From: Cellulosimicrobium cellulans
Lineage (GTDB): Bacteria > Actinomycetota > Actinomycetes > Actinomycetales > Cellulomonadaceae
Length of the DNA: 64,000 nt
Direction: 5' to 3'
Assembly: GCF_016921195.1 (NCBI RefSeq)
Contig: NZ_JAFGYF010000001.1
Span: 992,001-1,056,000 of the forward strand
Position numbers and translations under genes: made by a program. The notes beneath the pieces were generated by a model. That model had not been told where the DNA came from and searched no databases. It saw only the letters and a program-made list of their open reading frames with translations. Position 1 is the first letter of the stretch, and each line of letters opens with the position of its first letter. This document shows, piece after piece, positions 4,446-49,037 of the stretch.

Positions 4446-4583
4446 CGGTCCATCTTGCCCCCGGCGCCCACGCCGGGCCGAACCCGGGCCGCGCGGCCGA
4501 CGCGTCGCGCCTGGTGCGCGTCCTGTCCGGCACGTCACCCGGTGGCGGGGAAGGTTCGGCGGGCCGGGGTCGTTGAGGCGGTC

Positions 4584-5786: not shown

Positions 5787-5826
5787 GCGCTCGTCAGGGC
5801 GGGCCGCCGCGGCCTACCGTGCACCG

Positions 5827-7212
5827 GTGAGCACCGAACCGCCCTCCGCCCACCCGTCGCCCGTGCACCCCGTGGCCGCGCCCGACGACCCCGCCCTCCC
5901 GACGCAGCGCCGCACCCTCACGACGCTGGCCGCGACGCAGGTGCTCTCGGGGGTGGGCGTCGCGAGCGGGATCGCGGTCGCGCCGCTCGTCGCGTCCGCG
6001 CTCTCGGGGTCGGACGCGATCGCCGGGCTGACCTCGACCTCCGGGGTCGTCGGCGCCGCGCTCGTCGCGCTGCCGCTCGCGCACGTCGCGGGGCAGCGCG
6101 GGCGACGGCCGTCCCTGCTCCTCGGCTTCGGCGTCGCGACCGGCGGTGCGGTCCTCGCGACGCTCGCCGTGCTCGTCGGCTCGTGGCCCCTGCTCGTCGT
6201 GGCCATGCTGCTGTTCGGTTCGGGCACGGCCGCCGGGCTCGCGTCCCGGTTCGCGGCGACCGACCTCGCGACGCCCCAGCGGCGGGCGCGCGACCTGTCC
6301 GTGGTCGTGTGGGCGACGACGGTGGGTTCCGTCGTCGGGCCGACGCTCGCCGGTCTCGCGGACCGCGTCGCCGGCGCCGGCCTGCGTCTCGACGACGCGC
6401 ACGCGCAGCACGGGTCGACCGCGCCGAGCGCGGCACCCTTCGTCCTCGCGGCGGTCGCGTTCGCGCTGGCGGCGGCCGTCGTCGCGGTGTGGCTGCGGCC
6501 CGACCCGCTGCTCGCGTCGCGCGCGACGTCGGACGCGGAACCCGGTGCGGTGGGCGTCGCTGCGCCCGGTGCGGCCTCGGGTCCGGTGCCGGGCGGTGGC
6601 ACGGGGGCGTCGTGGCGCGACGGCCTGCGCGCGGGATGGGCCGTGGTCTCGGCCAGCCCGACGGCGCGCCTCGCCCTCGGCGCGATCGTGCTCAGCCACC
6701 TCGTCATGGTCGGGCTCATGTCCATGACGCCCGTCCACATGAACCACGGCGGCGCCACGCTCCAGGTCGTCGGCCTCGTGATCAGCGCGCACATCGCGGG
6801 CATGTACGCACTGAGCCCGGTCGTCGGGTGGCTCGCCGACCGCGTCGGCCACGCGCGCGTGCTCTACGTCGGGGGCGCGCTGCTCCTCGCCGCGGCGGTC
6901 GTGGTGGCGGGCGCGCCGGGCGAGGACTCGGCGCGGCTGACGGTCGGCCTCGTGCTGCTCGGGCTCGGCTGGTCCTGCGGGCTCGTCGCCGGGTCGGCGC
7001 TGCTCGTCGACGCCACGCCCGGTCCGTCGCGCACGTCCGTGCAAGGCCTCTCCGACCTTGCGATGAACACCGGCGGCGCGGTCGGCGGGATCCTCGCCGG
7101 TGCGATCATCGGCTTCTCGTCCTACGGCGCGCTCGCCTGGGGCGCCGCCGCGCTCGTCGTCGTGTGCGCCGTCGTGGCGGCACCGCTGGCGCGGCGGGCC
7201 ACCCTGCGCTGA
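5827..7212 (+). CDS. MFS transporter
   Basis: The 461-residue integral membrane protein has roughly 12 hydrophobic segments in two halves. They are separated by a hydrophilic loop near residues 225-265 rich in Gly, Ala and Pro. The loop ADRVGHARVLYVGGALL between helices of the second half matches the MFS-1 drug/proton antiporter group. The start is GTG at 5827, preceded by TACCGT at 5815-5820 with only 6 nt between, so the mRNA is probably leaderless. The C-terminal half includes GLSDLAMNTGGAVGGILAGA, common in exporters. Substrate unknown. Confidence 0.85.
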   Translation: MSTEPPSAHPSPVHPVAAPDDPALPTQRRTLTTLAATQVLSGVGVASGIAVAPLVASALSGSDAIAGLTSTSGVVGAALVALPLAHVAGQRGRRPSLLLGFGVATGGAVLATLAVLVGSWPLLVVAMLLFGSGTAAGLASRFAATDLATPQRRARDLSVVVWATTVGSVVGPTLAGLADRVAGAGLRLDDAHAQHGSTAPSAAPFVLAAVAFALAAAVVAVWLRPDPLLASRATSDAEPGAVGVAAPGAASGPVPGGGTGASWRDGLRAGWAVVSASPTARLALGAIVLSHLVMVGLMSMTPVHMNHGGATLQVVGLVISAHIAGMYALSPVVGWLADRVGHARVLYVGGALLLAAAVVVAGAPGEDSARLTVGLVLLGLGWSCGLVAGSALLVDATPGPSRTSVQGLSDLAMNTGGAVGGILAGAIIGFSSYGALAWGAAALVVVCAVVAAPLARRATLR

Positions 7213-7223
7213 CCGAGACCGAC

Positions 7224-7296
7224 GAGAGATCGGCGGACCCGGTCGAGATCGGCGGTCGCGGCTGCCGATCTCGACCGTGAGTGCCGATCTCGCGGT
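7224..7296. repeat. inverted pairs of 19 bp-spaced GATCGGC repeats
   Basis: Between two convergent genes, GATCGGCGG occurs at 7228 and 7247, and the opposite orientation GCCGATCTCG occurs at 7264 and 7283. Both pairs are spaced by exactly 19 bp, giving two direct copies facing two inverted copies. The inner pair forms the 14 bp stem listed separately. The whole block fills the 103 bp intergenic space. Confidence 0.8.
7240..7277. terminator. bidirectional hairpin between convergent genes
   Basis: CGGTCGAGATCGGC (7240-7253) and GCCGATCTCGACCG (7264-7277) form a perfect 14 bp stem with a 10 nt loop. It lies 28 bp after the MFS stop and 39 bp after the stop of the minus-strand pentapeptide gene, so it could terminate both. 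There is no U-tract, as is usual for actinobacterial terminators. Confidence 0.65.
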
Positions 7297-7315
7297 GTGG
7301 CCGGTCGGAGCGGAC

Positions 7316-8197
7316 TCAGGCGACGGCCGCCGGGAGGGCCGTGCGCTCGTCCCGGCGGATCGCGCCGGCCTGCGCCGGGGTGAGGAACAGCGCCCGGGAG
7401 AGGTCGGTGCCGCGCGCGTCGGCGCCGCGCAGGTCCGCGCCGAGGAGGTCGGCGGCGTCGAGCCGGGAGCCCCGCAGGTCCGCGCGGAGCAGCAGCGCGC
7501 CCCGGAGATCGGACCCGGTGAGGTCGAGCGCACGCAGGTCGGCGCCGACGAGGTCCGCGCCGGGCCGGAGGCGGCGGCGCACGGCCGCTCCGGGAGCCCG
7601 GTACCGCGCGGTCGTCCGGTGGGCGGCGGCTCGGGCCGCGTCCCGCACGAGCGCGCTCGCACGGTCGATCAGCGGCCCGACGTCGCGGCGGACGGTGCCG
7701 ACGTCGAGCGCGAGGAGGGCGGCCGGGGCGAGGTCCGCGAGGGGCGCGGTCTGCGCGAGGGCCCGTCGTGCGTCGTCGTGCACGGGGGCCGCGGCGGGCA
7801 GCGACAGCACCTCGGCGAGGTACCAGAGCAGCTTTTGGAGCTGCGTGACGACGGGGAGCGTGGCGAACGCGTCGCGCGCGGCGGCGGGGTCGTCGCGCCA
7901 CGTCGCGCCGCCGTGCGCGGACCGGACGGCCGCCGTCACGCGCTGTCCCGCGCCGAGGCAGTCGTACGCGACGCAGCCGGGGAACCCGGTCTCGCGCAGC
8001 CGGGCGTGGATTCCGCAGCCGAAGTCGGAGCGCAGGTTCGGGCACGGGGTGCCCGCGGGCTTGTCGATCGCGAAGTCGGCGGAGCGCACGAGGTGCAGAC
8101 CCACGCAGCACAGGCCGGTGCAGCGCGCGCAGTCGCTGCGCAGGCCGAGCTGCTCGACGAGGAGGGCGCGACCGTCGGCCGCGGGAACGGGTGGCAC
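7316..8197 (-). CDS. pentapeptide-repeat protein with N-terminal cysteine cluster
   Basis: This 293-residue protein has two regions. Residues 20-80 hold eight cysteines (23, 26, 30, 31, 52, 61, 75, 80) in the pattern C-x2-C-x3-CC ... CPNL ... C ... C ... C, resembling the YkgJ/CxxCxxxCC putative metal-binding domain. Residues about 205-270 are pentapeptide repeats (GADLVGADLRALDLTGSDLR and following) that should fold as a short right-handed quadrilateral beta-helix. Pentapeptide proteins of the Qnr/MfpA type protect gyrase, but this helix is too short to assume that role. The GTG at 8197 follows TAGCGT by 6 nt, suggesting a leaderless message. Confidence 0.75.
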   Translation of the reverse strand: MPPVPAADGRALLVEQLGLRSDCARCTGLCCVGLHLVRSADFAIDKPAGTPCPNLRSDFGCGIHARLRETGFPGCVAYDCLGAGQRVTAAVRSAHGGATWRDDPAAARDAFATLPVVTQLQKLLWYLAEVLSLPAAAPVHDDARRALAQTAPLADLAPAALLALDVGTVRRDVGPLIDRASALVRDAARAAAHRTTARYRAPGAAVRRRLRPGADLVGADLRALDLTGSDLRGALLLRADLRGSRLDAADLLGADLRGADARGTDLSRALFLTPAQAGAIRRDERTALPAAVA

Positions 8198-8246
8198 GTC
8201 CCGACGCTACGCCGTCCGCGGGAGGTCGGGCACGGACATATCGACC

Positions 8247-8305
8247 GCCGGGCGCGGGAGGGCGACCGGGCCTCGGGTGATTTGGTCGCCGGTCCCGCGC
8301 CCGGC
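8247..8305 (-). terminator. two-part hairpin downstream of the mannanase gene
   Basis: GCCGGGCGCGGGA (8247-8259) pairs with TCCCGCGCCCGGC (8293-8305), and inside it GGCGACC (8261-8267) pairs with GGTCGCC (8284-8290). The 13 bp outer and 7 bp inner stems begin 9 bp after the mannanase stop, so this is the likely terminator of that gene. Confidence 0.7.
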
Positions 8306-8313
8306 GTGCGGGC

Positions 8314-9750
8314 TCAGGGAGCGGTGCAGGCCGCCGTGGGGGCGGTGGTCGGGGCGGCGCCCGTCGCGATGAACCCGGCGGTCGTCGTGCCGCCCGCGGC
8401 GAGCGCGCCGTTCCACGCGGCGTTCGTCACCTGCTCGCCCGCGGCGGTCGCGCCGTGCACGCCGCCCCACAGCTGCGCGACGGCGGTGCCCGACGGCAGC
8501 GCGAACGTCGCCGTCCAGCCCGTGACCGCGGCGTCACCCGCCGTGACGACGAGCTCTCCCTGCCACCCGCCGGGCCAGGCGTTCGCGACGCGGACCGTCG
8601 CGGAGCACGCCGCGTCGTCCGAAGGATCGGTCGGGTCGGGCGGGTCGGTGGGGTCCGGCGGGTCCACGGGGCCGTCGCCGCCGAACCACGACGCCTCGAC
8701 CGCGGTCTCACGCAGGCCGCCCGGCCCGTCGATCACGCGGGTGCCCCACGCGCTCGGGTTCGCGGCGTCGAACCCGAGGACCATGTCGAGGTACGGGTCG
8801 GTGTTGCCGCTCCACGACCACGCGAGCCAGCCCAGGTCGAGGCGGTTCGCCTCCGCGATGACGACGTCCGCGTCGACGTCGCCCTCGGCGCGCTTCCAGC
8901 CGAACTCGCCGACCATGATCGGCAGCCCGGCGTCCACGAAGTGCTCCAGGTAGTCCGTGACGGTCGCCGCGTGCGCGTACACGCCGTACATGTGGATGGA
9001 GAAGATCGTGTTCGCGTCCGGGTCGGCGTCGAACACGCCCTGCGCCTCGGCGCGCATGACGTTCGTCCAGTCCTGCCCCCAGTTGGGCGCGTCGACGACG
9101 ATCGCGTGCTCGTAGCCGATGCCTCGCAGCCGCTGGATCGCGGCCGACGTCTCGGGCGCCCACCGCTGGTTGACCGTCGCGTCGTTGCCGAACGGCTCGT
9201 TGCCGATGTTGACGAGGACGAAGTCCTCGGTGCCGGCGAGCGTCGGGTACAGGTCCTCCCAGTAGTCGACCGCCTGGTCGAGGGTCCCGGCGTCGGGCGC
9301 GTGCTGGTCGCCGTAGCCCGTGGTGTCGTGCACCTCGAGGACGCACACGAGGCGGTTCTCCTCGCACAGGTCGACGACGTTCGCGACGTCCTCGGGGGAG
9401 TTGCGCGTCCACTGGTCGCCGCTCGACAGGACGACGCGCACCGTGTTGGCACCGGCCGCCTTGATGTCGGCGAACGACCCCGTGGCGTGCGTGTACCAGG
9501 TGTGCGCGTGGTTGACGCCGCGCAGCACGAGGTCCGTGCCGTCGGCCTCGACGATCCTCCCGTCGGCCACGTGGATGCCGGGCGGCGTGCCCGCCTCGGC
9601 GGCCGCCGCGGACCGCGCGGTCGCGGTCGCGACCGCGCCGCACGTGGCGAGGATCGCGGCGGTCGCGAGCGCGGCGACCAGCGGGGCGGACCGTCCGGTC
9701 CCGGGCGGTCGGGCGGCGCCGGCGTCGGGTGCGGGGGCGGTGCGGCTCAT
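8314..9750 (-). CDS. secreted GH5 (subfamily 8-like) endo-beta-1,4-mannanase with CBM2
   Basis: The 478-residue precursor begins with a basic stretch and hydrophobic core (PLVAALATAAILATCGAVATA), a Sec signal. The catalytic domain matches GH5_8 mannanases: GIHVADGRIVEADGTDLVLRG, GVNHAHTWY, the acid/base glutamate in NIGNEPFGN (about residue 185) and the nucleophile glutamate in IMVGEFGW (about residue 282). A PVDPPDPTDPPDPTDPSDD linker leads to a C-terminal CBM2-type module with conserved tryptophans (AWPGGW, VTGW, NAAWNG). It should cut mannan or glucomannan outside the cell. ATG at 9750 is chosen because GAGG lies 6-7 nt upstream; an ATG 54 bp earlier lacks this. A LacI-type operator lies upstream. 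Confidence 0.93.
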   Translation of the reverse strand: MSRTAPAPDAGAARPPGTGRSAPLVAALATAAILATCGAVATATARSAAAAEAGTPPGIHVADGRIVEADGTDLVLRGVNHAHTWYTHATGSFADIKAAGANTVRVVLSSGDQWTRNSPEDVANVVDLCEENRLVCVLEVHDTTGYGDQHAPDAGTLDQAVDYWEDLYPTLAGTEDFVLVNIGNEPFGNDATVNQRWAPETSAAIQRLRGIGYEHAIVVDAPNWGQDWTNVMRAEAQGVFDADPDANTIFSIHMYGVYAHAATVTDYLEHFVDAGLPIMVGEFGWKRAEGDVDADVVIAEANRLDLGWLAWSWSGNTDPYLDMVLGFDAANPSAWGTRVIDGPGGLRETAVEASWFGGDGPVDPPDPTDPPDPTDPSDDAACSATVRVANAWPGGWQGELVVTAGDAAVTGWTATFALPSGTAVAQLWGGVHGATAAGEQVTNAAWNGALAAGGTTTAGFIATGAAPTTAPTAACTAP

Positions 9751-9835
9751 CGGACGACCTCGTCTCTGTCGGCTGCGCACGCCCGGGTCGGCGTGCCCGG
9801 ACATCGTGCGGCGGGCCGTCGCCGTCGAGCAGGGA

Positions 9836-9849
9836 CTGAACCGATTCAG
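9836..9849. promoter_or_regulatory. LacI-family-type operator upstream of the mannanase
   Basis: CTGAACCGATTCAG is a 14 bp near-palindrome, symmetric except for one central pair and centred about 92 bp before the mannanase ATG. Its form is that of LacI-family sugar-repressor sites, which have a central CG step in many actinobacterial glycoside hydrolase genes. The repressor gene is not in the window. Confidence 0.55.
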
Positions 9850-9925
9850 CGAGGCGGCGTCCCGCCGAGCACGAGTCTGCCCGCACGAGAACGGGGCCGG
9901 TGCCCTTCTCGCGCGGAGAACGACA

Positions 9926-9941
9926 CCGACCCCGTGGTCGG
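9926..9941 (-). terminator. hairpin downstream of acsA
   Basis: CCGACC (9926-9931) and GGTCGG (9936-9941) form a 6 bp stem with a CCGT loop, 12 nt after the acsA stop on the minus strand. A second imperfect hairpin follows at 9887-9910 (GAGAA/TTCTC with GGGC/GCCC). Together they probably end the acsA transcript before the mannanase promoter. Confidence 0.5.
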
Positions 9942-9952
9942 CGCAGGGCCGG

Positions 9953-11971
9953 TCAGTCCTCCGAGGACGACGGCTTCTGCAGACCGGCCGAGATGAGCTC
10001 CATCACCGACGAGTCCGCGAGGGTCGTCGCGTCGCCGACGGTGCGGTTCTCCGCGACGTCGCGTAGCAGGCGGCGCATGATCTTGCCGGACCGGGTCTTG
10101 GGCAGCTCCGGCACGACGAGGATGCGCTTGGGCTTGGCGATCGGGCCGATCTCCTTGGCCACGTGGTTGCGCAGCTCGGTCTGCACCGCGGCGGCGCCGT
10201 CGGCGTCCGACGCCCGGCTCGCGTGCTCGCCGCGCAGGATGACGAACGCGACGACGGCCTGCCCCGTGAGGTCGTCGCTCGCGCCGACGACCGCGGCCTC
10301 CGCGACGATCTCGTGCGACACGAGCGCCGACTCGATCTCCGTGGTGGACAGGCGGTGGCCCGAGACGTTCATGACGTCGTCGACACGGCCGAGCAGCCAG
10401 ATGTCGCCGTCCTCGTCCTTCTTGGCGCCGTCGCCCGCGAAGTAGATCCCCGGGAAGCGGGACCAGTACGTGTCCTTGAAGCGCTCGAGGTCGCCCCAGA
10501 TGCCGCGCAGCATGGACGGCCAGGGCTCGGAGAGCACGAGGTACCCGCCGCCGCCGTCCGGCACGGAGTGCGCCTCGTCGTCGACGACGTCCGCGACGAT
10601 GCCCGGGAGCGGGACCTGGGCGGAGCCCGGCTTGGCGGCCGTCACGCCGGGGAGCGGGGAGATCATGATCGCGCCGGTCTCGGTCTGCCACCACGTGTCG
10701 ACGATCGGCGTGCGGTCGCCGCCGATGACGCGGCGGTACCACATCCACGCCTCGGGGTTGATGGGCTCGCCCACCGAGCCGAGCACGCGCAGCGAGGACA
10801 GGTCGAACTTCGCCGGGATGTCCTCGCCCCACTTCATGCACGCGCGGATCGCGGTCGGCGCCGTGTAGAGGATCGAGACCTTGTACTTCTCGACGAGCTC
10901 CCACCAGCGGCCCTGGTGCGGGGTGTCGGGCGTGCCCTCGTAGATGACCTGCGTCGCGCCGTTGAGCAGCGGACCGTAGACCACGTAGGAGTGGCCGGTG
11001 ACCCAGCCGATGTCGGCCGTGCACCAGTAGACGTCGGTCTCGGCCTTGAGGTCGAAGACGTTGCGGTGCGTGTACGCGGCCTGGGTGAGGTACCCGCCGG
11101 TCGTGTGCAGGATGCCCTTGGGTTTCCCGGTCGTCCCGGACGTGTAGAGGATGAACAGCGGGTGCTCGGCCTCGACCCACACGGGCGTGTGCGTCGTGTC
11201 GGCCGACTCGAGCGCGTCGTGCCACCACACGTCGCGGCCCTCGGTCCACGCGGTCTCCTGGCCGGTGCGGCGCACGACGAGCACGTGCTCGACCGTCGTC
11301 GGCTCCGCGCCCTCCTTCGGTGCGAGCGCCTCGTCGACCGCGGGCTTGAGCGCGGAGGCCGCGCCGCGGCGGTACCCGCCGTCGGCCGTGATGACGAGCT
11401 TCGCCTCGGCGTCGGCGATGCGGCTGCGCAGCGCGTCGGCCGAGAACCCGCCGAACACTACCGAGTGGGGCGCACCGATCCGCGCGCACGCGAGCATTGC
11501 GACGACAGCCTCGACGACCATCGGCAGGTAGATGACGACGCGGTCGCCGGTCTCGACGCCGAGCGCCGCGAGAGCGTTGGCGGCGCGCGACACGTCGCGC
11601 TGGAGCTCGGCGTACGTGACCGTCCGGGTGTCGCCCGGCTCGCCCTCGAAGTGGATCGCGACCCGGTCGCCCAGACCGGCCTCGACGTGGCGGTCCACCG
11701 CGTTGTACGCGGCGTTGAGCGTGCCGTCCGCGAACCAGCGCGCGACGGGGGCCTGTGACCAGTCGAGCGTCTCGGTGAACGGCGTGCGCCAGGTGACGAG
11801 GTCGTTCGCCTGCCGCGCCCAGAACGCGAGCCGGTCGGCCCGGGCCTCCTCGTAGAGCTCGGGCTTCGCGTTCGCCTGCGCGGCGAACTCCGGGCTCGGC
11901 GGGAAGCTGCGGGTCTCGTGGAGGAGGTTCTCCAGCCCGGGCTGAGCAGTGGTGGACTCGTTCTCTGGCAC
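9953..11971 (-). CDS. acsA: acetyl-CoA synthetase (AMP-forming)
   Basis: The 672-residue ANL-superfamily enzyme activates acetate to acetyl-AMP and then acetyl-CoA in the cytoplasm. It shows the P-loop [13 protein letters not shown], the [10 protein letters not shown] adenine-binding motif, the hinge region [19 protein letters not shown] and the C-terminal [11 protein letters not shown], whose last catalytic lysine is the site acetylated by protein acetyltransferases in homologues. The GTG at 11969-11971 is chosen because a perfect GGAGGT lies 5 nt upstream; the frame stays open upstream but has no such site. Length fits Acs (about 650). A CRP-like site and a TAGACT -10 lie about 110 bp upstream. 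Confidence 0.97.
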
Positions 11972-38026: not shown

Positions 38027-39727
38027 GTGCAGCACGACGACGTCGACTCCCTGCGACGGTCGAGCGCGGCGTGGCGGCTCCTGCGCGCGGACACGGCGCC
38101 GCTCGTGCTGTCGTTCCTCGGCACGCTGTTCGTCGAGGACAACGTGCGCGCGATCCCCGAGAGCGAGCTCGTCGCGCGGCTCGACGACCACCTCTGGGCG
38201 ATCGACGGCCGGTCCGCGCGGGCCTCCGGCGCGGAGCCGCGGTACCCGCGCGCCCCGCAGGCGTACGTCGACCACTGGGCGCACCCGGACCAGGGCTGGC
38301 TGCGCGCCTGGTACCCGCCGGGCTCCGGCGAGCCGCACTACGACGCGACCCCCGCCGTCGAGCAGGCCGTGCGCTGGGTCACGTCGCTCCGGGGCCGCGG
38401 GTTCGTGGGCACGGAGTCGCGGCTCAACACGGTCTTCGAGCTCCTGCGCCAGCTCGCCGTCGGGACGCAGACCGACCCGGCCGAGCGACTGCGCGAGCTC
38501 GAGGAGCGGCGCGCCGCCATCGACGAGGAGATCGCGCAGGTGCGTGCCGGGCGCGTCGCCGTCCTCGATGCCGCCGCGCAGCGCGACCGCTACCAGCAGC
38601 TCACCCAGACCGCCGCCGACCTCCTCTCGGACTTCCGCGAGGTCGAGGCGAACTTCCGCTCCCTCGACCGCGAGCTGCGCGAGCGGATCACCGGCTGGGA
38701 CGGCGCGAAGGGCGAGCTGCTCGAGGAGGTCGTGCGGTCGCGCACCGCCATCGCGGAGTCGGACCAGGGCCGGTCGTTCCACGCGTTCTACGACTTCCTG
38801 CTCGACCGCCGACGCCAGGAGGAGTTCGCCGCGCTCGTCGAACGCGTGCAGTCCCTCGACGCGATCTCGCCGGACGTCGTCCGGTCGGCCCCGGAGGGAC
38901 CGGGGGCCGTCGTGGACGCCGCCGCGGCGCAGGCCGTGGCCCGCGAGCAGGAGCACCGCCGGCTGCGGCGCGTCCACTACGACTGGCTCGACGCCGGCGA
39001 GCGCACCCAGGCGACCGTGCGGACGCTCTCGGAGCAGCTCCGCCGCTTCCTCGACGACCAGGTGTGGCTGGAGAACCGGCGGGTCATGGACATCCTGCGC
39101 GGCGTCGAGGCCAAGGCGCTCGCCGCGCGCGACGTCCGCAGGGGGCCCGGCGGGCCGCCGGGCATGGCGATCGACGCCGTCGCCCCGGACGTCGTGCTCC
39201 CGACGGAGCGGCCGCTCTTCACGCCGCGGCCCACGGCCCGGCTCGACTCCGACCACGTCGAGGTCGGCGACGACGACTTCGAGGTCGACGCGCTCTACGA
39301 CCAGGTGCACGTGGACCCCGAGCGGCTCGCGCGCGCGGTCCGGGCGACGCTCACGGCCCCCGGCGGACCAGGGGAGGTCGCGCTCGCGGACCTGCTCGAG
39401 GCCGCGCCGCTCGAGCACGGCCTGGCCGAGCTCGTGACGTACCTGTCGCTGGAGGACCCGCGGTTCGTCGTCGTGCACGACGAGGAGCGGACGGACGAGG
39501 TGCGCTGGGAGGGCGAGGCCCCGGCGGGGCCGGTCGTCGAGGACGGCACGCCGGACCCCGTGGTGCGCGTCGCACGCCTGCCGCGCGTCACCTACGCGCG
39601 GCGCACGGGGGCGGGCGGCGGGGCCTCGCCGACGCCGCGCGGCCCCGCCCCGGACGGCCCGTCCGCGACCCGACCCGACGACGACCCCCGCGACACCGCC
39701 GACCCCGCCCCGGAGGAGACCCCGTGA
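38027..39727 (+). CDS. jetA: JetA (DUF3375), kleisin-like subunit of a Wadjet-type complex
   Basis: The 566-residue protein matches DUF3375/JetA, the MukF-like kleisin of Wadjet. An N-terminal winged-helix region (SSAAWRLLRADTAPLVLSFL) and the segment FVGTESRLNTVFELLRQL precede a long coiled coil at about residues 140-235 (RLRELEERRAAIDEEIAQV). A middle part with GRSFHAFYDFLLDRRRQEEF follows, and the last 50 residues are a Pro/Asp/Gly-rich tail. The GTG at 38027 has GAGAGG upstream. The stop overlaps jetB by 4 bp. Wadjet complexes recognise and restrict plasmids by loop extrusion; here jetD is absent. Confidence 0.92.
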   Translation: MQHDDVDSLRRSSAAWRLLRADTAPLVLSFLGTLFVEDNVRAIPESELVARLDDHLWAIDGRSARASGAEPRYPRAPQAYVDHWAHPDQGWLRAWYPPGSGEPHYDATPAVEQAVRWVTSLRGRGFVGTESRLNTVFELLRQLAVGTQTDPAERLRELEERRAAIDEEIAQVRAGRVAVLDAAAQRDRYQQLTQTAADLLSDFREVEANFRSLDRELRERITGWDGAKGELLEEVVRSRTAIAESDQGRSFHAFYDFLLDRRRQEEFAALVERVQSLDAISPDVVRSAPEGPGAVVDAAAAQAVAREQEHRRLRRVHYDWLDAGERTQATVRTLSEQLRRFLDDQVWLENRRVMDILRGVEAKALAARDVRRGPGGPPGMAIDAVAPDVVLPTERPLFTPRPTARLDSDHVEVGDDDFEVDALYDQVHVDPERLARAVRATLTAPGGPGEVALADLLEAAPLEHGLAELVTYLSLEDPRFVVVHDEERTDEVRWEGEAPAGPVVEDGTPDPVVRVARLPRVTYARRTGAGGGASPTPRGPAPDGPSATRPDDDPRDTADPAPEETP

Positions 39728-40464
39728 GCACGACCCGCACCGCACGCGACCCGGAGCTGTCCGTCGTCGTGACGTCGCTGCTCAAGGGCGTCGTCTACCG
39801 CGAGTCCGGCGAGGCGCTGTGGCGCGACCTGCTCGCGCGAGAGGCGCAGGTGCGCGACGCCGTGGCGATGCTCGGGCTGCAGGTCGTCGTCGACGAGGGC
39901 GACGGCTACGCCTACCTGCGCTCGCAACCCGAGCACGAGCGCGACGAGCGCGTGCCGCGCCTCATCCCCCGGCGAGAGCTGCCGTTCGACGTGAGCCTGC
40001 TGCTCGCGCTGCTGCGCAAGCGGCTCGCGCAGGCCGACTCCGAGGGCGGGGAGACGCGCCTCGTGCTCGCGCGCACGGAGATCGTCGACCTGCTCCGGGT
40101 GTTCCTCGCGCAGGACGCGGGGGCCGCCGCCAACGAGGCGCGGCTCGTCGATCGGGTCGACGGTCTGGTGCGGCGCGTCGTCGAGCTGGGCTTCCTGCGT
40201 CCGGCGGGTCGTCCCGACCCGGACGGCGTGCCCGACGGCGGGGCCGCCCCGGGCGAGGACGGCGACCCGGCCGCCGGCGACGCACGGCGGTACGAGGTGC
40301 GCCGCATCCTCAAGGCGTTCGTCGACGCCCAGTGGCTCGCGGACTTCGACGCGCGCCTCGCGCAGTACCTGGAGCTCGCCGCGGACGGCGGGCCCCGCGG
40401 GACGGCGTCGGGCACGGCGGGCACCGGCACGAGTGCGGGCACGACGACGAGGACGGTGGCGTGA
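39724..40464 (+). CDS. jetB: JetB (DUF4194), MukE-like subunit
   Basis: The 246-residue protein matches DUF4194/JetB. It has two winged-helix-like parts, with LSVVVTSLLKGVVYRESGEA near the start, ELPFDVSLLLALLRKRLAQ in the middle and YEVRRILKAFVDAQWLADFD near the end. It should bind JetA as MukE binds MukF. The last 30 residues are Gly/Thr/Ala low complexity. GTG at 39724 overlaps the jetA stop, and the TGA overlaps the jetC ATG by one base (TGATG), so the three are translationally coupled. Confidence 0.9.
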   Translation: MSTTRTARDPELSVVVTSLLKGVVYRESGEALWRDLLAREAQVRDAVAMLGLQVVVDEGDGYAYLRSQPEHERDERVPRLIPRRELPFDVSLLLALLRKRLAQADSEGGETRLVLARTEIVDLLRVFLAQDAGAAANEARLVDRVDGLVRRVVELGFLRPAGRPDPDGVPDGGAAPGEDGDPAAGDARRYEVRRILKAFVDAQWLADFDARLAQYLELAADGGPRGTASGTAGTGTSAGTTTRTVA

Positions 40465-43400
40465 TGGAAGGCCTGTTCAGCGCGGTCGAGCTGCACGACC
40501 CGGCCGCCGACCTCGACGCGCGGGCGGGCTTCCGCCTCGAGCGGCTCGAGGTCCTCAACTGGGGAACGTTCGACCAGCGCGTGTGGGCGTTCGACCTCGA
40601 CGGCCGCAACGCGCTCCTCACGGGCGACATCGGCTCGGGCAAGTCGACGATCGTCGACGCGGTGACGACCCTCCTCGTGCCGTCGCACCGGATCTCCTAC
40701 AACAAGGCCGCCGGGGCGGGCGCGCGCGAGCGGTCGCTGCGCTCGTACGTCGCCGGGCACTACAAGTCCGAGCGCGACGAGGCGACGGGCACGACGCGCC
40801 ACGTGGGCCTGCGCGAGCGCGGCACGTACTCGGTCGTGCTGGGGCGGTTCTCGAACCGCGGGTTCGACCAGGAGGTCACGCTCGCCCAGGTGTTCTGGCT
40901 CGCGCCGGGCCAGTCGGGACAGCCCGACCGGTTCTTCGTCACGGCCGACCGGCCGCTGACGATCACCGAGGACTTCGCGGGGTTCGGCGGCGACGTCGCC
41001 GCGCTGCGGCGACGGCTGCGCGAGTCGGGCGCCCAGGTGCGCGACCACTTCCCCGAGTACGGCCGCGACTTCCGCCGCCTGCTCGGCATCCCGTCGGAGC
41101 AGGCGATGGACCTGTTCCACCAGACCGTGTCCATGAAGTCGGTCGGCGACCTCGGCGAGTTCGTGCGCGAGCACATGCTCGAGCCGTTCGACGCCGACCG
41201 CTGGACGGACCGGCTCGTCGCGCACTTCGACGACCTCACGAGCGCGCACGACGCCGTCGTGCGGGCCACCGCGCAGATCGAGCGCCTCGCGCCGCTGCTC
41301 GCGGACTGCGACGCGCACGACGAGCTGGGAGAGCGCGCAGCGGCGCTCGTGGCCCGGCGCGACGCCTTGCGCGCGTTCACGGCGTCGCGCCGCGTGGCCG
41401 ACCTCGACGGCCTCATCGGCGCGCTCGACGAGCGAGTCGCGGACGGCGAGACCCGGCGCCAACGCGTCGCCGACGAGCTCGGGCTCCTCGCGGCCGAGCG
41501 GCAGCGGCTCGAGCTCGAGCGCGCGGGCCACGGCGGCGACCGCCTCGCCGCGATCGAGGGGGAGGTCGCGCGCCGCGAGGTCGAGCGCGCCGCGCGCGAG
41601 CGCCGCGTCGCCCAGCTCGCGGGCTACGCCGCCGCAGCCGGCCTCACGCTCGGCACCGAACCCGGGGTTGCAGCACCCCAAGGCGCCGAACCCGGCGACA
41701 TCCCCGGGTTCGGCGGTTCTGGTGACCACAACCCCGGGTTCGGCGGCGGGGCGGCGGCGGTGGCCGCCGCGCTCGTCGATCCCGACGCGTTCGCCGCGCT
41801 GCGGCGTGCGGCCGACGACGCCGCGGTGCGCGTGCGCGAGGACCTCGCCCGGGCGGAGGAGCGCGCGAGCGAGGTCGCCGCGGAGCTGCGCGCCGTCGAG
41901 CAGGAGACCGCCGACGTCAAGGCCGAGCTCGCGAGCCTCGCCGACCGCCGCTCCAACCTGCCGCGCACCCACCTGGAGGTCCGCGACCGGCTGTGCGCCG
42001 GCGTCGGGCTCTCGCCGGGCGACGTGCCGTTCGTGGGTGAGCTGCTCGCCGTCCGCCCCGAGCACGCCGAGTGGGAGGGCGCGGCCGAGCGCGTGCTGCG
42101 CGGCTTCGCGCTCTCGCTCCTCGTGCCGGCGGCGCACTACGACGCGGTGTCCGCGTGGGTCGACCGTGAACACCTCGGGCTGCGGCTCGTCTACCACCGG
42201 GTGCCCGAGCGCGTCACCGCCGCCCGCCCGGCGCCGCGCGAGGACGGCGTGCCGCTCCTCGCCGACCTGCTCGACGTGCGCCGCCTCGACGACGCGCCGT
42301 CGCTCACCGCGTGGGTCGAGGCCGAGCTCGAGCGTCGCGCCGACCACGCGTGCGCGCCCGACCTCGACGCGTTCCGCCGGCTGCCCCGGGCGATCACGCG
42401 GGCCGGCCAGGTCAAGCACTCGCCGGACCACCACGAGAAGAACGACACGCGCGCCGTCGACGACCGCCGCGGCTACGTGCTCGGGTGGTCGACACAGGCC
42501 AAGATCGACGCGCTGCTGGAGCAGGCGGCCGAGGTGACCGCGCGCCGCGACGCGCTCGTGCGGCGTCGGGACGAGGCCGCCGCCGCGCGCGCGGACCTCC
42601 AGTCGCGGTCCGCCGCGCTCGGCCGCCTCGACGTGTACCGCGACTGGGACGAGCTCGACCGCGGCGCGGAGACGGCACGGATCGCGGAGCTCGCCGAGGA
42701 GAAGCGCCGCCTCGAGCAGGCGAGCGAGGAGCTCGGCCGCCTCGCAGCCCTGCTCGACGACAACGCGCGCCGACAGGCGGAGCTCGAGGCCGAGCGCGAC
42801 CGCGTCGTCGCGACGCTCGGCGCCGACCGGCACGCGCTCGACGAGGCGAGGACGGCGCGGGAGCGGGCGCGCGCGGTGCTCGACGGCGCGCGCGAGACGC
42901 TCGACGAGGAGACGACGGCGGCGCTCACCGCGGAGTTCGAGCGCGAGCTCGCGGCGGTCGGACCCGACGGCGGGGCGGCCCCGGACGGCGGGGCAGGCGG
43001 CCCGACGCGCGCGGCCGACCTCGACGCCGTCGAGAACGCGGTGCGCTCGCGGCTCACCGCCGAGGCCGAGCAGGCGCAGCGCGAGCGCGCGGACCTCGGG
43101 ACCCGGATCGCCGGACAGATGGCGTCCTTCCGCTCGGCGTACCCGGTCGAGACGGCCGAGCTCGACGCGGACGTGCGGTCGGCCGACGGCTACCGGGAGA
43201 TCCACGACCGGCTCGTGCGCGACGACCTCCCGCGCTTCGAGGCCGACTTCAAGGCGTACCTCAACACCAACGCGATCCGCGACATCGCGGGGTTCGCGGC
43301 CGAGCTCGCCAAGCAGGCCGACGTCATCCGCGACCGGATCGACACCATCAACGACTCGCTGCGCGCGATCGACTACAACCCGGGCCGGTACATCCGGCTC

Positions 43401-44114
43401 GAGATGTCGCGCACGCCGAACCTCGAGGTGCGCGAGTTCCAGCAGGACCTGCGCGCGTGCACCGACGGCGACGGGATCCTCGCGGAGGACGACCGCGCGC
43501 TCGCCGAGGGCGACGGGTCGCTCGCCGACGGCGCGCTGTCGTACTCGGAGGACCGGTTCCTGCGGGTCAAGGCGCTCGTCGAGCGGTTCCGCGGGCGCGA
43601 AGGCATGAGCGACCTCGACGAGGCGTGGCGCCGGCGGGTCACGGACGTGCGCAACTGGTTCGTGCTCTCCGCGTCCGAGCGCTCGCGCGCCGACGACTCC
43701 GAGCACGAGCACTACTCCGACTCGGGCGGCAAGTCCGGCGGGCAGAAGGAGAAGCTCGCGTACACCGTCCTCGCGGCGTCGCTGGCCTACCAGTTCAAGC
43801 TCGACTGGGGCGCGGTGCGCTCGACGGCGTTCCGGTTCGTCGTCATCGACGAGGCGTTCGGGCGGGGGTCGGACGAGTCGACCCGGTTCGCGCTCGAGCT
43901 GTTCCGTCGCCTGGGCCTGCAGCTCCTCATCGTCACGCCGCTGCAGAAGATCCACGTGATCGAGCCGTACATCTCGGCCGTCGGGTTCGTGGACAACCCG
44001 TCGGGGCGGTCCTCACGCCTGCGGACCCTGTCGATCGCCGCGTACCGCGACGGTCGTCCGGCCGGCGAGGCAGCGGCGTCGGGCGCCGTCCCCGAGCCCT
44101 CTGCCGCGAGGTAG
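40464..44114 (+). CDS. jetC: JetC, SMC/MukB-like ATPase with inserted palindromic element
   Basis: The 1216-residue ATPase is the motor of the complex. It has NALLTGDIGSGKST (Walker A, residues 54-62), long coiled coils at about 290-400, 435-480 and 700-880, and a hinge-like region around 490-660. The ABC signature is GGKSGGQKEKLAYTVLAAS and Walker B is FRFVVIDEAFGRGSDESTR. Residues about 398-427 (TEPGVAAPQGAEPG ... HNPGFGG) interrupt the first coiled coil and are coded by a nested palindrome. The stop codon lies within a degenerate 21 bp repeat unit. No jetD follows; the next gene is a tetR on the other strand. Confidence 0.93.
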   Translation: MEGLFSAVELHDPAADLDARAGFRLERLEVLNWGTFDQRVWAFDLDGRNALLTGDIGSGKSTIVDAVTTLLVPSHRISYNKAAGAGARERSLRSYVAGHYKSERDEATGTTRHVGLRERGTYSVVLGRFSNRGFDQEVTLAQVFWLAPGQSGQPDRFFVTADRPLTITEDFAGFGGDVAALRRRLRESGAQVRDHFPEYGRDFRRLLGIPSEQAMDLFHQTVSMKSVGDLGEFVREHMLEPFDADRWTDRLVAHFDDLTSAHDAVVRATAQIERLAPLLADCDAHDELGERAAALVARRDALRAFTASRRVADLDGLIGALDERVADGETRRQRVADELGLLAAERQRLELERAGHGGDRLAAIEGEVARREVERAARERRVAQLAGYAAAAGLTLGTEPGVAAPQGAEPGDIPGFGGSGDHNPGFGGGAAAVAAALVDPDAFAALRRAADDAAVRVREDLARAEERASEVAAELRAVEQETADVKAELASLADRRSNLPRTHLEVRDRLCAGVGLSPGDVPFVGELLAVRPEHAEWEGAAERVLRGFALSLLVPAAHYDAVSAWVDREHLGLRLVYHRVPERVTAARPAPREDGVPLLADLLDVRRLDDAPSLTAWVEAELERRADHACAPDLDAFRRLPRAITRAGQVKHSPDHHEKNDTRAVDDRRGYVLGWSTQAKIDALLEQAAEVTARRDALVRRRDEAAAARADLQSRSAALGRLDVYRDWDELDRGAETARIAELAEEKRRLEQASEELGRLAALLDDNARRQAELEAERDRVVATLGADRHALDEARTARERARAVLDGARETLDEETTAALTAEFERELAAVGPDGGAAPDGGAGGPTRAADLDAVENAVRSRLTAEAEQAQRERADLGTRIAGQMASFRSAYPVETAELDADVRSADGYREIHDRLVRDDLPRFEADFKAYLNTNAIRDIAGFAAELAKQADVIRDRIDTINDSLRAIDYNPGRYIRLEMSRTPNLEVREFQQDLRACTDGDGILAEDDRALAEGDGSLADGALSYSEDRFLRVKALVERFRGREGMSDLDEAWRRRVTDVRNWFVLSASERSRADDSEHEHYSDSGGKSGGQKEKLAYTVLAASLAYQFKLDWGAVRSTAFRFVVIDEAFGRGSDESTRFALELFRRLGLQLLIVTPLQKIHVIEPYISAVGFVDNPSGRSSRLRTLSIAAYRDGRPAGEAAASGAVPEPSAAR
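41656..41743 (+). repeat. 88 bp nested palindromic element inside jetC
   Basis: Outer arms CCGAACCCGGGGTTG (41656-41670) and CAACCCCGGGTTCGG (41729-41743) are perfect 15 bp complements. Inner arms CGCCGAACCCGG (41684-41695) and CCGGGTTCGGCG (41704-41715) are perfect 12 bp complements. It is read through in frame as a Gly/Pro-rich peptide without a stop. A related string CCGAACCCGGG lies near 4479-4489 upstream of mshD. Confidence 0.85.
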
Positions 44115-44146
44115 GACCCTGCTCGCGCGTGGGAGGACCCGGCCGT
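44105..44146 (-). repeat. two degenerate 21 bp units at the jetC stop
   Basis: CGCGAGGTAGGACCCTG... (44105-44125) and CGCGTGGGAGGACCC... (44126-44146) match the reverse-orientation units at 32069-32110 in register. The jetC stop TAG (44112-44114) lies inside the first unit. Confidence 0.6.
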
Positions 44147-44190
44147 GACCGGCCTCCTGCCGCGGCGAGCCGTGCCCGACGGCGGCCGGT

Positions 44191-44901
44191 TCAGCCGAGC
44201 GGGCGCGGTCGCCGGGCCCCGGCGAGGGTCGAGGCGAGGACCGCCTCGATCGCGAACGCGGTGGACTCGGCGAGGTCCACGGCCTCGGGGTCGAGGAGCC
44301 ACTGGATCTGGAGGCCGTCCATCGCGCCGATGATCGTCGACGCCGCGAGGTCGAGCGCGGCGTCGGTGAGCTCGTAGTCCGTGTCGGTGTCGCCCGCGGC
44401 GCGGCGCTCCTCGATCACCTCGCGCAGGGCGCCCGCGATGTCGGCACGCAGCCCCGTGAAGCGCTCCGTGACCCAGGCGCTCGCCGGGTGCCCGTCGGTG
44501 ACGGCCTCGCCCGTGAGCACGGCGTAGGCCTGGACGATCCCCGGCCGCTCGGCGTTGATGGCGGCGGTCGTGACGAGGTGCCGGAAGAGGTCCAGCCCGC
44601 CCGGGATGTGCTGCCCCTCGAGGTGCTCGACGTCGACGCGGTCGCGGAACTCGAGCACCTCGGTGAGCAGCCGGTCCTTGGAGCCGAAGTGGTGCAGCAC
44701 CCCCGCGTGCGTGATGCCGACCTGCTCGGCGACCTCGGCGAGCGATCCCTGGTGGTAACCCTTGGACCCGAACACGCGCATCGCCGCGCGCAGGATCTCC
44801 TCGCGGCGCTCGAGCGTCGCCGCGCGCGTGCGGCGGGGCCGGGGTGTCCGCGCGGGGGCGGCGCCGTCGTCGGCGCCCCGCGCGGGGGAGACGTCCGTCA
44901 T
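44191..44901 (-). CDS. TetR family regulator
   Basis: The 236-residue protein has a clear TetR helix-turn-helix (RREEILRAAMRVFGSKGYHQ, then SLAEVAEQVGITHAGVLHHFGSK) and a C-terminal ligand domain (DAALDLAASTIIGAMDGLQIQWLLDP) typical of the TetR_C_6-like group. ATG at 44901 is chosen because TAGGGT (44914-44909) lies exactly 7 nt upstream, giving a leaderless mRNA. It converges on jetC and is divergent from the PAP2 gene; its target is not evident. Confidence 0.88.
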   Translation of the reverse strand: MTDVSPARGADDGAAPARTPRPRRTRAATLERREEILRAAMRVFGSKGYHQGSLAEVAEQVGITHAGVLHHFGSKDRLLTEVLEFRDRVDVEHLEGQHIPGGLDLFRHLVTTAAINAERPGIVQAYAVLTGEAVTDGHPASAWVTERFTGLRADIAGALREVIEERRAAGDTDTDYELTDAALDLAASTIIGAMDGLQIQWLLDPEAVDLAESTAFAIEAVLASTLAGARRPRPLG

Positions 44902-45025
44902 GACGGTCACCCTACTGTGGCCCCGTCTTGCCCTGCGGGGCTGGTCGGCCCGGGTGGGAACAGCGCGCGGAGCCTCTTCCCGCCGTCTTCTCGGAACGCA
45001 CACACGTGTCCTCTACGGTGGAGGG

Positions 45026-46274: not shown

Positions 46275-49037
46275 ATGCCACGCAAGCTCGTGATCGTCGA
46301 GTCGCCCGCCAAGGCTCGAAAGATCCAGGGCTACCTCGGCGACGACTACGAGGTCGAGGCGAGCGTGGGGCACATTCGCGACCTGCCGCAGCCGTCCGAG
46401 CTGCCCGCGGACATGAAGAAGGGTCCGTACGGCAAGTTCGCCGTCGACGTCGACCACGGGTTCGACCCCTACTACGAGGTCTACGCGGACAAGAAGAAGA
46501 AGGTCGCCGAGCTCAAGCGCGCGCTCAAGGACGCCGACGAGCTCTACCTCGCGACCGATGAGGACCGCGAGGGCGAGGCCATCGCGTGGCACCTCCTCGA
46601 GGCGCTCAAGCCCAAGGTCCCGGTCAAGCGCATGGTCTTCCACGAGATCACGCGCGAGGCCATCCAGCGGGCGCTGCAGAACACGCGCGACCTCGACGAG
46701 CACCTCGTCGACGCGCAGGAGACGCGACGCATCCTCGACCGCCTGTACGGCTACGAGGTCTCGCCCGTGCTGTGGCGCAAGATCGCCCAGGGGCTGTCGG
46801 CGGGCCGCGTGCAGTCGGTCGCGACGCGCCTCGTCGTCGAGCGCGAGCGCGAGCGCATGGCGTTCGTCCCCGCCGAGTACTGGGACGTCACGGGCACGTT
46901 CGAGCACGCGGACGCCTCCGCCCCCGACGCGGGGAAGGCGTTCGGCGCCCGTCTCGTGCAGGTCGGCGACGCGCGGGTCGCGTCGGGCCGCGACTTCGAC
47001 GACCGGGGGCAGCTCAAGGCGGCCGCGGTGCGCGACGGCGTCGCGCACCTCGACGAGGCGACGGCGCGCTCCGTCGTGGCCGGGCTCACGGACGCCGCGT
47101 TCGTCGTGCGCTCGCTCGAGACCAAGCCGTACACGCGCCGTCCCGCGGCGCCGTTCACGACGTCGACCCTCCAGCAGGAGGCGAGCCGCAAGCTCCGCAT
47201 GTCGTCGCGCCAGGCGATGCGGACGGCACAGTCGCTGTACGAGAACGGCTACATCACCTACATGCGTACGGACTCGCCGTCGCTGTCGGCCGAGGCCACC
47301 ACGGCGGCGCGCCGGCAGGCCGCCGAGCTCTACGGCCCCGAGTTCGTGCCCGAGAAGCCGCGCGTCTACGCCGCGAAGAACCAGGGCGCGCAGGAGGCGC
47401 ACGAGGCGATCCGTCCCGCGGGCGACTCGTTCCGCACGCCCGCGCAGGTCAAGCGCGAGCTGAGCGACGACCAGTTCAAGCTCTACGAGCTCGTGTGGAA
47501 GCGCACCGTCGCGTCGCAGATGGCCGACGCCAAGGGGTCGACGGCGTCGGTGCGCCTCGGCGCGGCCCTCTCGGCCGCCGCGGGCGACGTCGCGGGTCGC
47601 GACGCGGTGTTCGCCGCGTCGGGCACCGTCATCACGTTCCGCGGGTTCCTCGCCGCGTACGAGGAGAGCTCGGACGTCGACCGGTACGCCGAGGACGCGC
47701 CCGTCGTCGGCAGCAAGGGCGACGACGACGCGCGCCTGCCGCAGATGAGCGAGGGCGACGCGCTGCGCGGCGACGACCTCACGGCGGACGGGCACTCGAC
47801 GTCGGCCCCGCCCCGCTACACCGAGGCGAGCCTCGTCAAGGCGCTCGAGGAGCTCGGCATCGGCCGTCCGTCCACGTACGCCTCGACGATCTCGACGATC
47901 CAGGACCGCGGGTACGTGCTCTCGCGCGGACAGGCGCTCGTGCCGAGCTGGCTCGCGTTCGCCGTCGTGCGGCTCCTCGAGGAGCACTTCGACCGGCTCG
48001 TCGACTACGACTTCACGGCGCGGATGGAGGCGGACCTCGACGAGATCGCGGCCGGGCGCCGCGACCGCGTCGCGTGGCTCACGGAGTTCTACTTCGGGGA
48101 CGCCGCGAAGGGCGAGGACGGCGAGGGCCTGCGCGACCTCGTCGCGAACCTCGGCGACATCGACGCGCGCGGCATCAACTCCGTGCCGATCGGGGAGGGG
48201 ATCCAGCTCCGGGTCGGTCGGTACGGCCCGTACGTCGAGGACCTCTCCGTCCCGGTCAAGGAGGGGCAGAACCCGCCGCGAGCGTCCGTGCCCGACGACG
48301 TGGCCCCCGACGAGCTGACCGTCGCCAAGGCGCGCGAGCTGCTCGCGGCGGGCGCCGACGACGGCAAGGTGCTCGGCACCGACCCCGCCTCGGGCAACGA
48401 GATCGTGGCCAAGGCGGGCCGCTACGGCCCGTACGTCACCGAGGTGCTCGACCTCCCGCCCATCGACACGAGCCTGTCCGCCGCCGCGCAGAAGAAGGCG
48501 AAGGCCGCGCAGCCCAAGCCGCGCACGGCGTCGCTGCTCAAGACGCAGTCGCTCGACACCGTCACGCTCGAGGATGCTCTGCGTCTGCTCTCGCTGCCGC
48601 GCGTGGTCGGGACCGACCCGGAGTCGGGCGAGGAGATCACGGCGCAGAACGGCCGCTACGGCCCGTACCTCAAGAAGGGCACCGACTCGCGCTCGCTGCC
48701 CGACGAGGAGTCCATGTTCACCGTCACTCTCGACGAGGCGATCGAGCTCTACAAGCAGCCCAAGCGCGGCCGCGGCCAGCGCGCCGCGACGCCGCCCCTG
48801 CGCGAGCTCGGCGACGACCCGAACAGCGGCAAGCCGATCGTCGTCAAGGACGGCCGGTTCGGCGCGTACGTCACCGACGGGGAGACGAACCGCACCCTCC
48901 CGCGCGACGTCACTCCCGAGTCGATCACGCCCGAGCGCGCGATCGAGCTCCTCGCGGAGAAGCGTGCGCAGGGTCCGGCGAAGAAGCGCACGGCAACGCG
49001 CAAGCCCGCCGCGCGAAAGACTGCCGCCAAGAAGTAG
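46275..49037 (+). CDS. topA: DNA topoisomerase I
   Basis: The 920-residue type IA topoisomerase relaxes negative supercoils. The TOPRIM domain has LVIVESPAKARKIQGYLGD and ATDEDREGEAIAWHLLE; the active-site tyrosine is Y329 in GYITYMRTDSPSLS. C-terminal repeats (GRYGPYV, GRYGPYL, GRFGAYV) replace zinc fingers, as in other actinobacteria, and a Lys/Arg/Ala tail (KKRTATRKPAARKTAAKK) binds DNA. ATG at 46275 follows an AGCAGGA site. topA near tmk-holB is the usual actinobacterial order, here separated by about 10 kb of other genes. Confidence 0.98.
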   Translation: MPRKLVIVESPAKARKIQGYLGDDYEVEASVGHIRDLPQPSELPADMKKGPYGKFAVDVDHGFDPYYEVYADKKKKVAELKRALKDADELYLATDEDREGEAIAWHLLEALKPKVPVKRMVFHEITREAIQRALQNTRDLDEHLVDAQETRRILDRLYGYEVSPVLWRKIAQGLSAGRVQSVATRLVVERERERMAFVPAEYWDVTGTFEHADASAPDAGKAFGARLVQVGDARVASGRDFDDRGQLKAAAVRDGVAHLDEATARSVVAGLTDAAFVVRSLETKPYTRRPAAPFTTSTLQQEASRKLRMSSRQAMRTAQSLYENGYITYMRTDSPSLSAEATTAARRQAAELYGPEFVPEKPRVYAAKNQGAQEAHEAIRPAGDSFRTPAQVKRELSDDQFKLYELVWKRTVASQMADAKGSTASVRLGAALSAAAGDVAGRDAVFAASGTVITFRGFLAAYEESSDVDRYAEDAPVVGSKGDDDARLPQMSEGDALRGDDLTADGHSTSAPPRYTEASLVKALEELGIGRPSTYASTISTIQDRGYVLSRGQALVPSWLAFAVVRLLEEHFDRLVDYDFTARMEADLDEIAAGRRDRVAWLTEFYFGDAAKGEDGEGLRDLVANLGDIDARGINSVPIGEGIQLRVGRYGPYVEDLSVPVKEGQNPPRASVPDDVAPDELTVAKARELLAAGADDGKVLGTDPASGNEIVAKAGRYGPYVTEVLDLPPIDTSLSAAAQKKAKAAQPKPRTASLLKTQSLDTVTLEDALRLLSLPRVVGTDPESGEEITAQNGRYGPYLKKGTDSRSLPDEESMFTVTLDEAIELYKQPKRGRGQRAATPPLRELGDDPNSGKPIVVKDGRFGAYVTDGETNRTLPRDVTPESITPERAIELLAEKRAQGPAKKRTATRKPAARKTAAKK

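Follow-up and report, generated by a model that had tools for sequence, protein, structure and literature searches.

What does a Wadjet motor do in a genome without the Wadjet nuclease? In Wadjet type I systems (JetABCD, also termed MksBEFG or EptABCD), JetABC is described as a dimeric, DNA-extruding motor and JetD as the subunit that cuts DNA once extrusion is complete (PMC10586767 and PMC12647877; here and below, citations refer to the available portions of each paper). A 64,000-nucleotide stretch of the Cellulosimicrobium cellulans genome (NCBI RefSeq assembly GCF_016921195.1, contig NZ_JAFGYF010000001.1, positions 992,001 to 1,056,000), referred to here as the window, carries jetA, jetB, and jetC at 38027..44114 but no jetD. 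Our preferred reading, to which we assign a probability of about 0.6, is that this operon encodes a chromosomal, nuclease-free type I JetABC complex (MksFEB) that probably serves as a further condensin in addition to SMC-ScpAB. The observations on which it is based are intact genes and ATPase motifs, no JetD by three profiles, conservation throughout the genus and in several genera, purifying selection, and a co-resident ScpA. Loci with jetABC but no jetD are termed D-less below, and JetD-bearing ones are termed JetD+.

The window operon and the search for jetD

The three genes are all open, lie co-directionally on the forward strand, and overlap by 4 bp (jetA/jetB) and 1 bp (jetB/jetC), in keeping with an earlier first-pass annotation of this DNA, which had described them as intact with overlaps of 1 to 4 bp. 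The first gene, jetA/mksF (38027..39727; 566 aa, GTG start), encodes a DUF3375 kleisin (PF11855, 1.9e-136; PADLOC JetA1, 4.9e-189), followed by jetB/mksE (39724..40464; 246 aa), which encodes a DUF4194 KITE subunit (PF13835, 2.3e-36; MksE PF21980, 4.7e-12; PADLOC JetB1, 5.9e-79). The third, jetC/mksB (40464..44114; 1216 aa), encodes a MukB-like, SMC-like ATPase (PF13555 and PF13558; PADLOC JetC1 PDLC00512, E = 0). Pfam and PADLOC thus confirm the gene names given in the first-pass annotation, and PADLOC assigns all three genes to Wadjet type I. Within JetC, the motifs GDIGSGKST, SGGQKEK, and VIDEAF, which we take to be the Walker A motif, the signature, and the Walker B region, are invariant in a seven-row alignment (A1) of sequences from four genera and one JetD+ relative. 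The operon therefore resembles Wadjet type I in its protein families, gene order, overlaps, and ATPase motifs, and the window JetC matches the solved JetC chains 8dk2 (1.3e-41) and 8as8 (6.8e-39). It differs in that no JetD was found in the operon or in the window genome, and in that JetA is present in all 17 Cellulosimicrobium genomes searched by profile and lies near topA in three genera.

In place of jetD, a gap of 76 bp (44115..44190) separates the jetC stop from a convergent tetR-family gene on the other strand (44191..44910; PF00440), and a VKOR gene (PF07884), also on the other strand, lies upstream of jetA; this layout is as first described. No jetD remnant was seen in the gap. A terminator was considered at this position and rejected, as the gap folds no better than shuffled sequences (z = -0.84).

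The first-pass annotation had offered three explanations for the missing gene: a jetD elsewhere in the genome, a nuclease-free complex of the MksBEF kind, or a different effector. The first of these is contradicted, for this genome, by three profiles. Among window open reading frames (ORFs) of at least 90 aa, a JetD profile gave no match at E ≤ 10. The whole-genome search that had been proposed as a check was also negative: the window genome, a draft of 23 contigs listed as 100% complete, gave no match to PF09983 or PF11795, both of which matched the control, Corynebacterium glutamicum, and none at E ≤ 1 to a full-length profile built from 11 JetD proteins (A3), which matched the control genome G006. 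Comparison with related strains, likewise proposed at the outset, gave the same picture. Of the 16 other Cellulosimicrobium genomes, 15 loci were examined (the G014 operon, on a 4.2-kb contig, was left out); three of these stop inside jetC (L066, L068, and L079), and of the 12 that extend past it, 11 have an intact jetABC without jetD. The twelfth, from G013, has a split jetC and also no jetD. This locus, from the draft genome of Cellulosimicrobium sp. CUA-896, is represented by L110 and L071; its jetC is divided into two overlapping ORFs, through either a sequencing error or real inactivation.

JetD was found in only 1 of the 17 Cellulosimicrobium genomes (G006), and the other 16 gave no match at E ≤ 1. 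In G006, jetD stands behind a second, different jetABC on contig C6, whose JetC is a 32% BLAST match to that of the window, and the strain's own copy of the window operon, on contig C8, is D-less. While a jetD could in principle have been missed through an assembly error in a 23-contig draft, or through divergence so great that an unlinked copy escapes the profiles, we consider this very improbable, given three negative profiles and the recurrence of the D-less arrangement in one-contig assemblies (G004 and G007) and a two-contig assembly (G012). A local misassembly at the window operon is also unlikely.

A D-less clade in four genera

The D-less state extends well beyond one locus, which could not have been visible from the window alone: it is lineage-wide in a clade found in Cellulosimicrobium, Oerskovia (g23), and two further genera, g11 and g19. 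Among the best 80 of 528 confirmed stretches from a genome scan, six loci (L105 to L110) belong to this clade and 74 lie outside it. Of the latter, 69 carry jetD directly after jetC, counting L117 and L178, in which jetD is cut by a contig end, and L126, in which it is spread over two ORFs; in L166, jetD sits in a longer overlapping ORF. The remaining five are L125, which ends at jetC, three Gordonia loci without jetD, and L183, without a jetA or jetD match. In a FastTree phylogeny of 147 JetC rows, the clade is uniformly D-less with a support of 100 and comprises 31 rows, which include repeats (the split jetC appears twice in each of two copies, L071 and L110, and other genomes are doubled). 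A quick IQ-TREE phylogeny of 49 selected JetC rows likewise recovers it as one starred clade, with a value of 100 in the Shimodaira-Hasegawa-like approximate likelihood ratio test. Its closest JetD+ neighbors in that tree are rows from Geodermatophilus and Pseudofrankia, at a node with a value of 93 that is not starred.

The Gordonia loci (L132, L133, and L137) resemble the clade in having no jetD after jetC, and the JetC of L133 also falls in PADLOC subfamily PDLC00512. However, the approximately unbiased (AU) test rejects a tree in which the clade and Gordonia are held together (p-AU = 1e-4), as well as one with a single JetD+ clade that excludes both (6e-5). The D-less state in this subfamily is therefore not a single clade. 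In Gordonia hydrophobica (L133; 1-11420), a jetABCD operon stands directly upstream of the D-less jetABC on the same strand; the jetD in this stretch belongs to the upstream operon, the jetA of which is cut by the locus edge and the jetC of which is called as two ORFs. Two further Gordonia species, represented by L132 and L137, show the D-less operon alone in the stretch examined.

Across the four genera of the clade, no conserved fourth gene was found after jetC. In Cellulosimicrobium, tetR and then c5/topA follow; in g11, c5/topA; in Oerskovia, a two-component pair or other genes; and in g19 (L098), unrelated genes. The different effector of the first-pass annotation consequently has no support at the locus itself and would have to act in trans. 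Such an unlinked partner, which could be some unrelated nuclease or, in one strain, a JetD encoded by a different Wadjet operon, appears improbable to us. It draws on G006, which holds a complete jetABCD in addition to its D-less jetABC, and on the tandem operons of G. hydrophobica; against it stand the lack of a common fourth gene and of any JetD match in 16 of 17 Cellulosimicrobium genomes, although unrelated nucleases were not searched for.

Part of the clade is also tied to a chromosomal landmark. In the window, 2.2 kb separate jetC from the downstream topA (46275-49037). Where both are on one contig, the distance between jetABC and topA is 1 to 15 kb in Cellulosimicrobium, in g11, and at most of the Oerskovia loci (in the Oerskovia exceptions, the two are on different contigs in G057, and topA is outside the 8-kb flank in L106). 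JetC identity to the window falls from 66% in g11 to 65% in Oerskovia and 56 to 60% in g19, and TopA identity falls in the same order (86%, 84%, and 79 to 80%), which fits largely vertical descent. The proximity to topA in three genera may hint at a link to DNA topology or may simply reflect shared descent.

JetA loci without a nearby JetD form the majority in a sample of the family and are common in a sample of the class. Of the 160 genomes in the family sample, 128 have JetA and 23 have JetD. A JetD lies within 9 kb of 20 of the 144 strong JetA loci in this sample (the weakest matches were left out); the other 124 have none at that range, and for two of these (G126 and G138) JetD is on another contig. 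Of the 394 genomes in the class sample, 68 have JetA and 39 have JetD, and 28 of its 68 strong JetA loci have JetD within 9 kb, leaving 40 without. In the family's other genera, all 18 examined D-less loci have jetC, and 19 of 20 examined at the class level have jetA, jetB, and jetC together without JetD. The exception, L192 (G389; 3985-11821), has a DUF3375 JetA-like gene and, 5.5 kb away, a jetB-like ORF, with no jetC match in the 16-kb stretch; between the two, on the other strand, lies an ORF that looks transporter-like by eye. From these counts, D-less type I operons are ordinary in these groups. Eight class-level loci (L193, L198 to L203, and L205; families f11 and f27) form one further D-less JetC clade with a support of 100, a candidate for another old nuclease-free lineage. 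Three of the genomes in that clade (G208, G308, and G359) have a JetD elsewhere.

Constraint on a motor without its nuclease

Selection on the operon was gauged by the ratio of nonsynonymous to synonymous substitution rates (dN/dS), using the Nei-Gojobori method; high G+C content makes the synonymous rate (dS) rough. Compared with five close relatives, dN/dS is 0.10 to 0.14 for jetC, 0.13 to 0.18 for jetA, and 0.06 to 0.19 for jetB, with 0.05 to 0.08 for topA, which indicates that JetABC is under purifying selection. These ratios below 1, the invariant ATPase motifs, the presence of the operon in four genera, and its intact state both in the window and at 11 of 12 other Cellulosimicrobium loci running past jetC largely refute the view that a lost Wadjet system has left the operon behind as a decaying remnant. 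The split jetC of one draft genome (G013) and the incomplete L183, from Accumulibacter and thus outside the clade, are what such decay might look like, and we hold it to be highly unlikely here.

Residue conservation was assessed over columns that are invariant in JetD+ reference rows (for JetC, 42 rows, mostly proteobacterial). The D-less clade has lost 26 of 164 such columns in JetA, 8 of 72 in JetB, and 64 of 408 in JetC. JetD+ Acidimicrobia have lost 24, 9, and 60, respectively, and other JetD+ actinobacteria 21, 3, and 44. Since the losses of the clade are close to those of JetD+ Acidimicrobia, the motor appears, at the level of aligned residues, to have been kept without its nuclease about as well as in those JetD+ relatives. 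The Gordonia D-less rows have lost 26, 17, and 79, so that their JetB has changed more than that of the clade.

Columns lost in both the clade and Gordonia yet kept in JetD+ actinobacteria number three in JetA, three in JetB, and seven in JetC. Because the clade shows little excess over the Acidimicrobia control, no signal of a JetD-docking site was found in the lost columns, which were compared as sequence columns only. In a characterized system, an IFDR motif at the JetB N terminus touches JetD (PMC10586767). Residue 15 of the window JetB aligns to residue 51 of the JetB in 8as8 and 9qxt, so that the N-terminal extension is missing; it is also missing in the JetD+ locus L081, and for this reason we rejected its absence as proof of a lost JetD dock. 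JetA C-terminal tails measure 15 to 58 residues in 11 clade rows, 17 to 34 in three Gordonia rows, and 0 to 27 in 20 selected JetD+ rows; with just two D-less clades available, this difference is recorded as an observation only.

A core about as conserved as in JetD+ relatives would also suit a complex that still opposes plasmids without cutting them, in which small circles are extruded, compacted, or trapped and are then silenced or lost. Smc5/6, another SMC complex, is reported to compact circular viral DNA without cutting it (PMC10586767). However, JetA in 17 of 17 genomes and a shared topA vicinity resemble the pattern of a core gene more than that of a defense island, and we regard this explanation as unlikely, though less so than an unlinked effector.

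One further feature of the window jetC is a Gly/Pro-rich, in-frame, repeat-containing insert (41640..41760, forward strand; JetC residues ∼393 to 433), made of CCGAACCCGG direct and inverted repeats. It varies in length among Cellulosimicrobium species and is absent from the measurable Oerskovia, g11, and g19 rows. This placement may put it close to the SMC elbow.

Proposed function and implications

Of the three explanations first offered, the nuclease-free, MksBEF-like complex is thus the best supported. Under this proposal, the JetA kleisin and JetB would bridge dimers of JetC, and the assembly would use ATP to translocate or extrude the DNA that it entraps, a motor activity assigned by analogy with the family. 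With no JetD in the genome, finished extrusion would not be ended by cleavage, and the outcome would be extrusion or entrapment alone; an operon conserved without its DNA-cutting partner probably handles DNA without cutting it. By the same kind of analogy, the complex would act as a second condensin in chromosome organization or segregation, as Pseudomonas aeruginosa MksBEF, which also has three subunits, is reported to do (PMC7485682). That system is likewise a kleisin, KITE, and SMC operon without MksG that coexists with SMC-ScpAB, and ScpA is present in 17 of 17 Cellulosimicrobium genomes (of SMC-ScpAB, the search covered ScpA only). The MksBEF precedent and the co-resident ScpA together make a second, nuclease-free condensin the best supported role. 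The likeness to P. aeruginosa is one of subunit makeup; PAO1 MksB lies outside the tree sets. Escherichia coli MukBEF also belongs to the Wadjet group, as a kleisin-KITE-SMC condensin that lacks JetD (PMC7617805), but the window JetC scores only 19.4 bits on the MukB model PF04310, under its cutoff of 23, and the window organism has ScpA as well.

Several points weigh against a chromosomal role, or against the history that would have led to it. In C. glutamicum, the reported target of MksBEFG, a nuclease-bearing actinobacterial relative, is plasmids and not the chromosome (PMC7083940), and the conservation of JetABC, including residues that JetD+ systems also keep, would be explained equally well if a nuclease still joined the complex in trans. 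The constraint on the operon is indeed weaker than that on topA: dN/dS for jetC rises with distance, to 0.20 to 0.22 (L065, L069, and L072), and reaches 0.57 against g11 (L092), where topA is at 0.23, with dS probably underestimated in distant pairs. Descent is not cleanly vertical either, since the g19 copy lies away from topA, and loci of g7, g21, and g3, with TopA 80 to 81% identical to that of the window, carry other classes of JetABC; g19 may therefore have gained its copy sideways, or the others may have lost theirs. Finally, the AU test does not reject a topology in which this clade alone lies outside all JetD+ members of the subfamily (p = 0.295), so that loss of JetD in the clade, rather than primitive absence, is a parsimony argument.

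Nuclease-free or MksBEF-type precedents have already been published (PMC10586767, PMC7617805, PMC7485682, and PMC7083940); at the level of titles and abstract openings, we found no literature on Wadjet, JetABC, or JetD loss in this clade. The available text of PMC10586767 treats two questions as unsettled: a possible action of Wadjet motors on the chromosome, and the possible descent of condensins such as MksBEF and MukBEF from defense systems. The clade adds to the published nuclease-less members of the Wadjet group a further case that is well delimited and conserved, and with its nearest JetD+ relatives at ∼50% identity in JetC, nuclease-free and nuclease-armed motors become directly comparable. 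In this family, in which 124 of the 144 strong JetA loci sampled have no JetD close by, operons could be mislabeled when plasmid defense is called from jetA, jetB, and jetC with no regard to jetD. We further propose, tentatively and at slightly less than even odds, that actinobacteria, by deleting jetD, have repeatedly made a plasmid-cutting defense machine into an SMC complex that stands alone and has a chromosomal (or silencing) role, with Cellulosimicrobium-Oerskovia and Gordonia as separate cases. If so, close pairs of JetD+ and D-less operons would constitute a natural experiment in the conversion of a defense motor into a housekeeping condensin.

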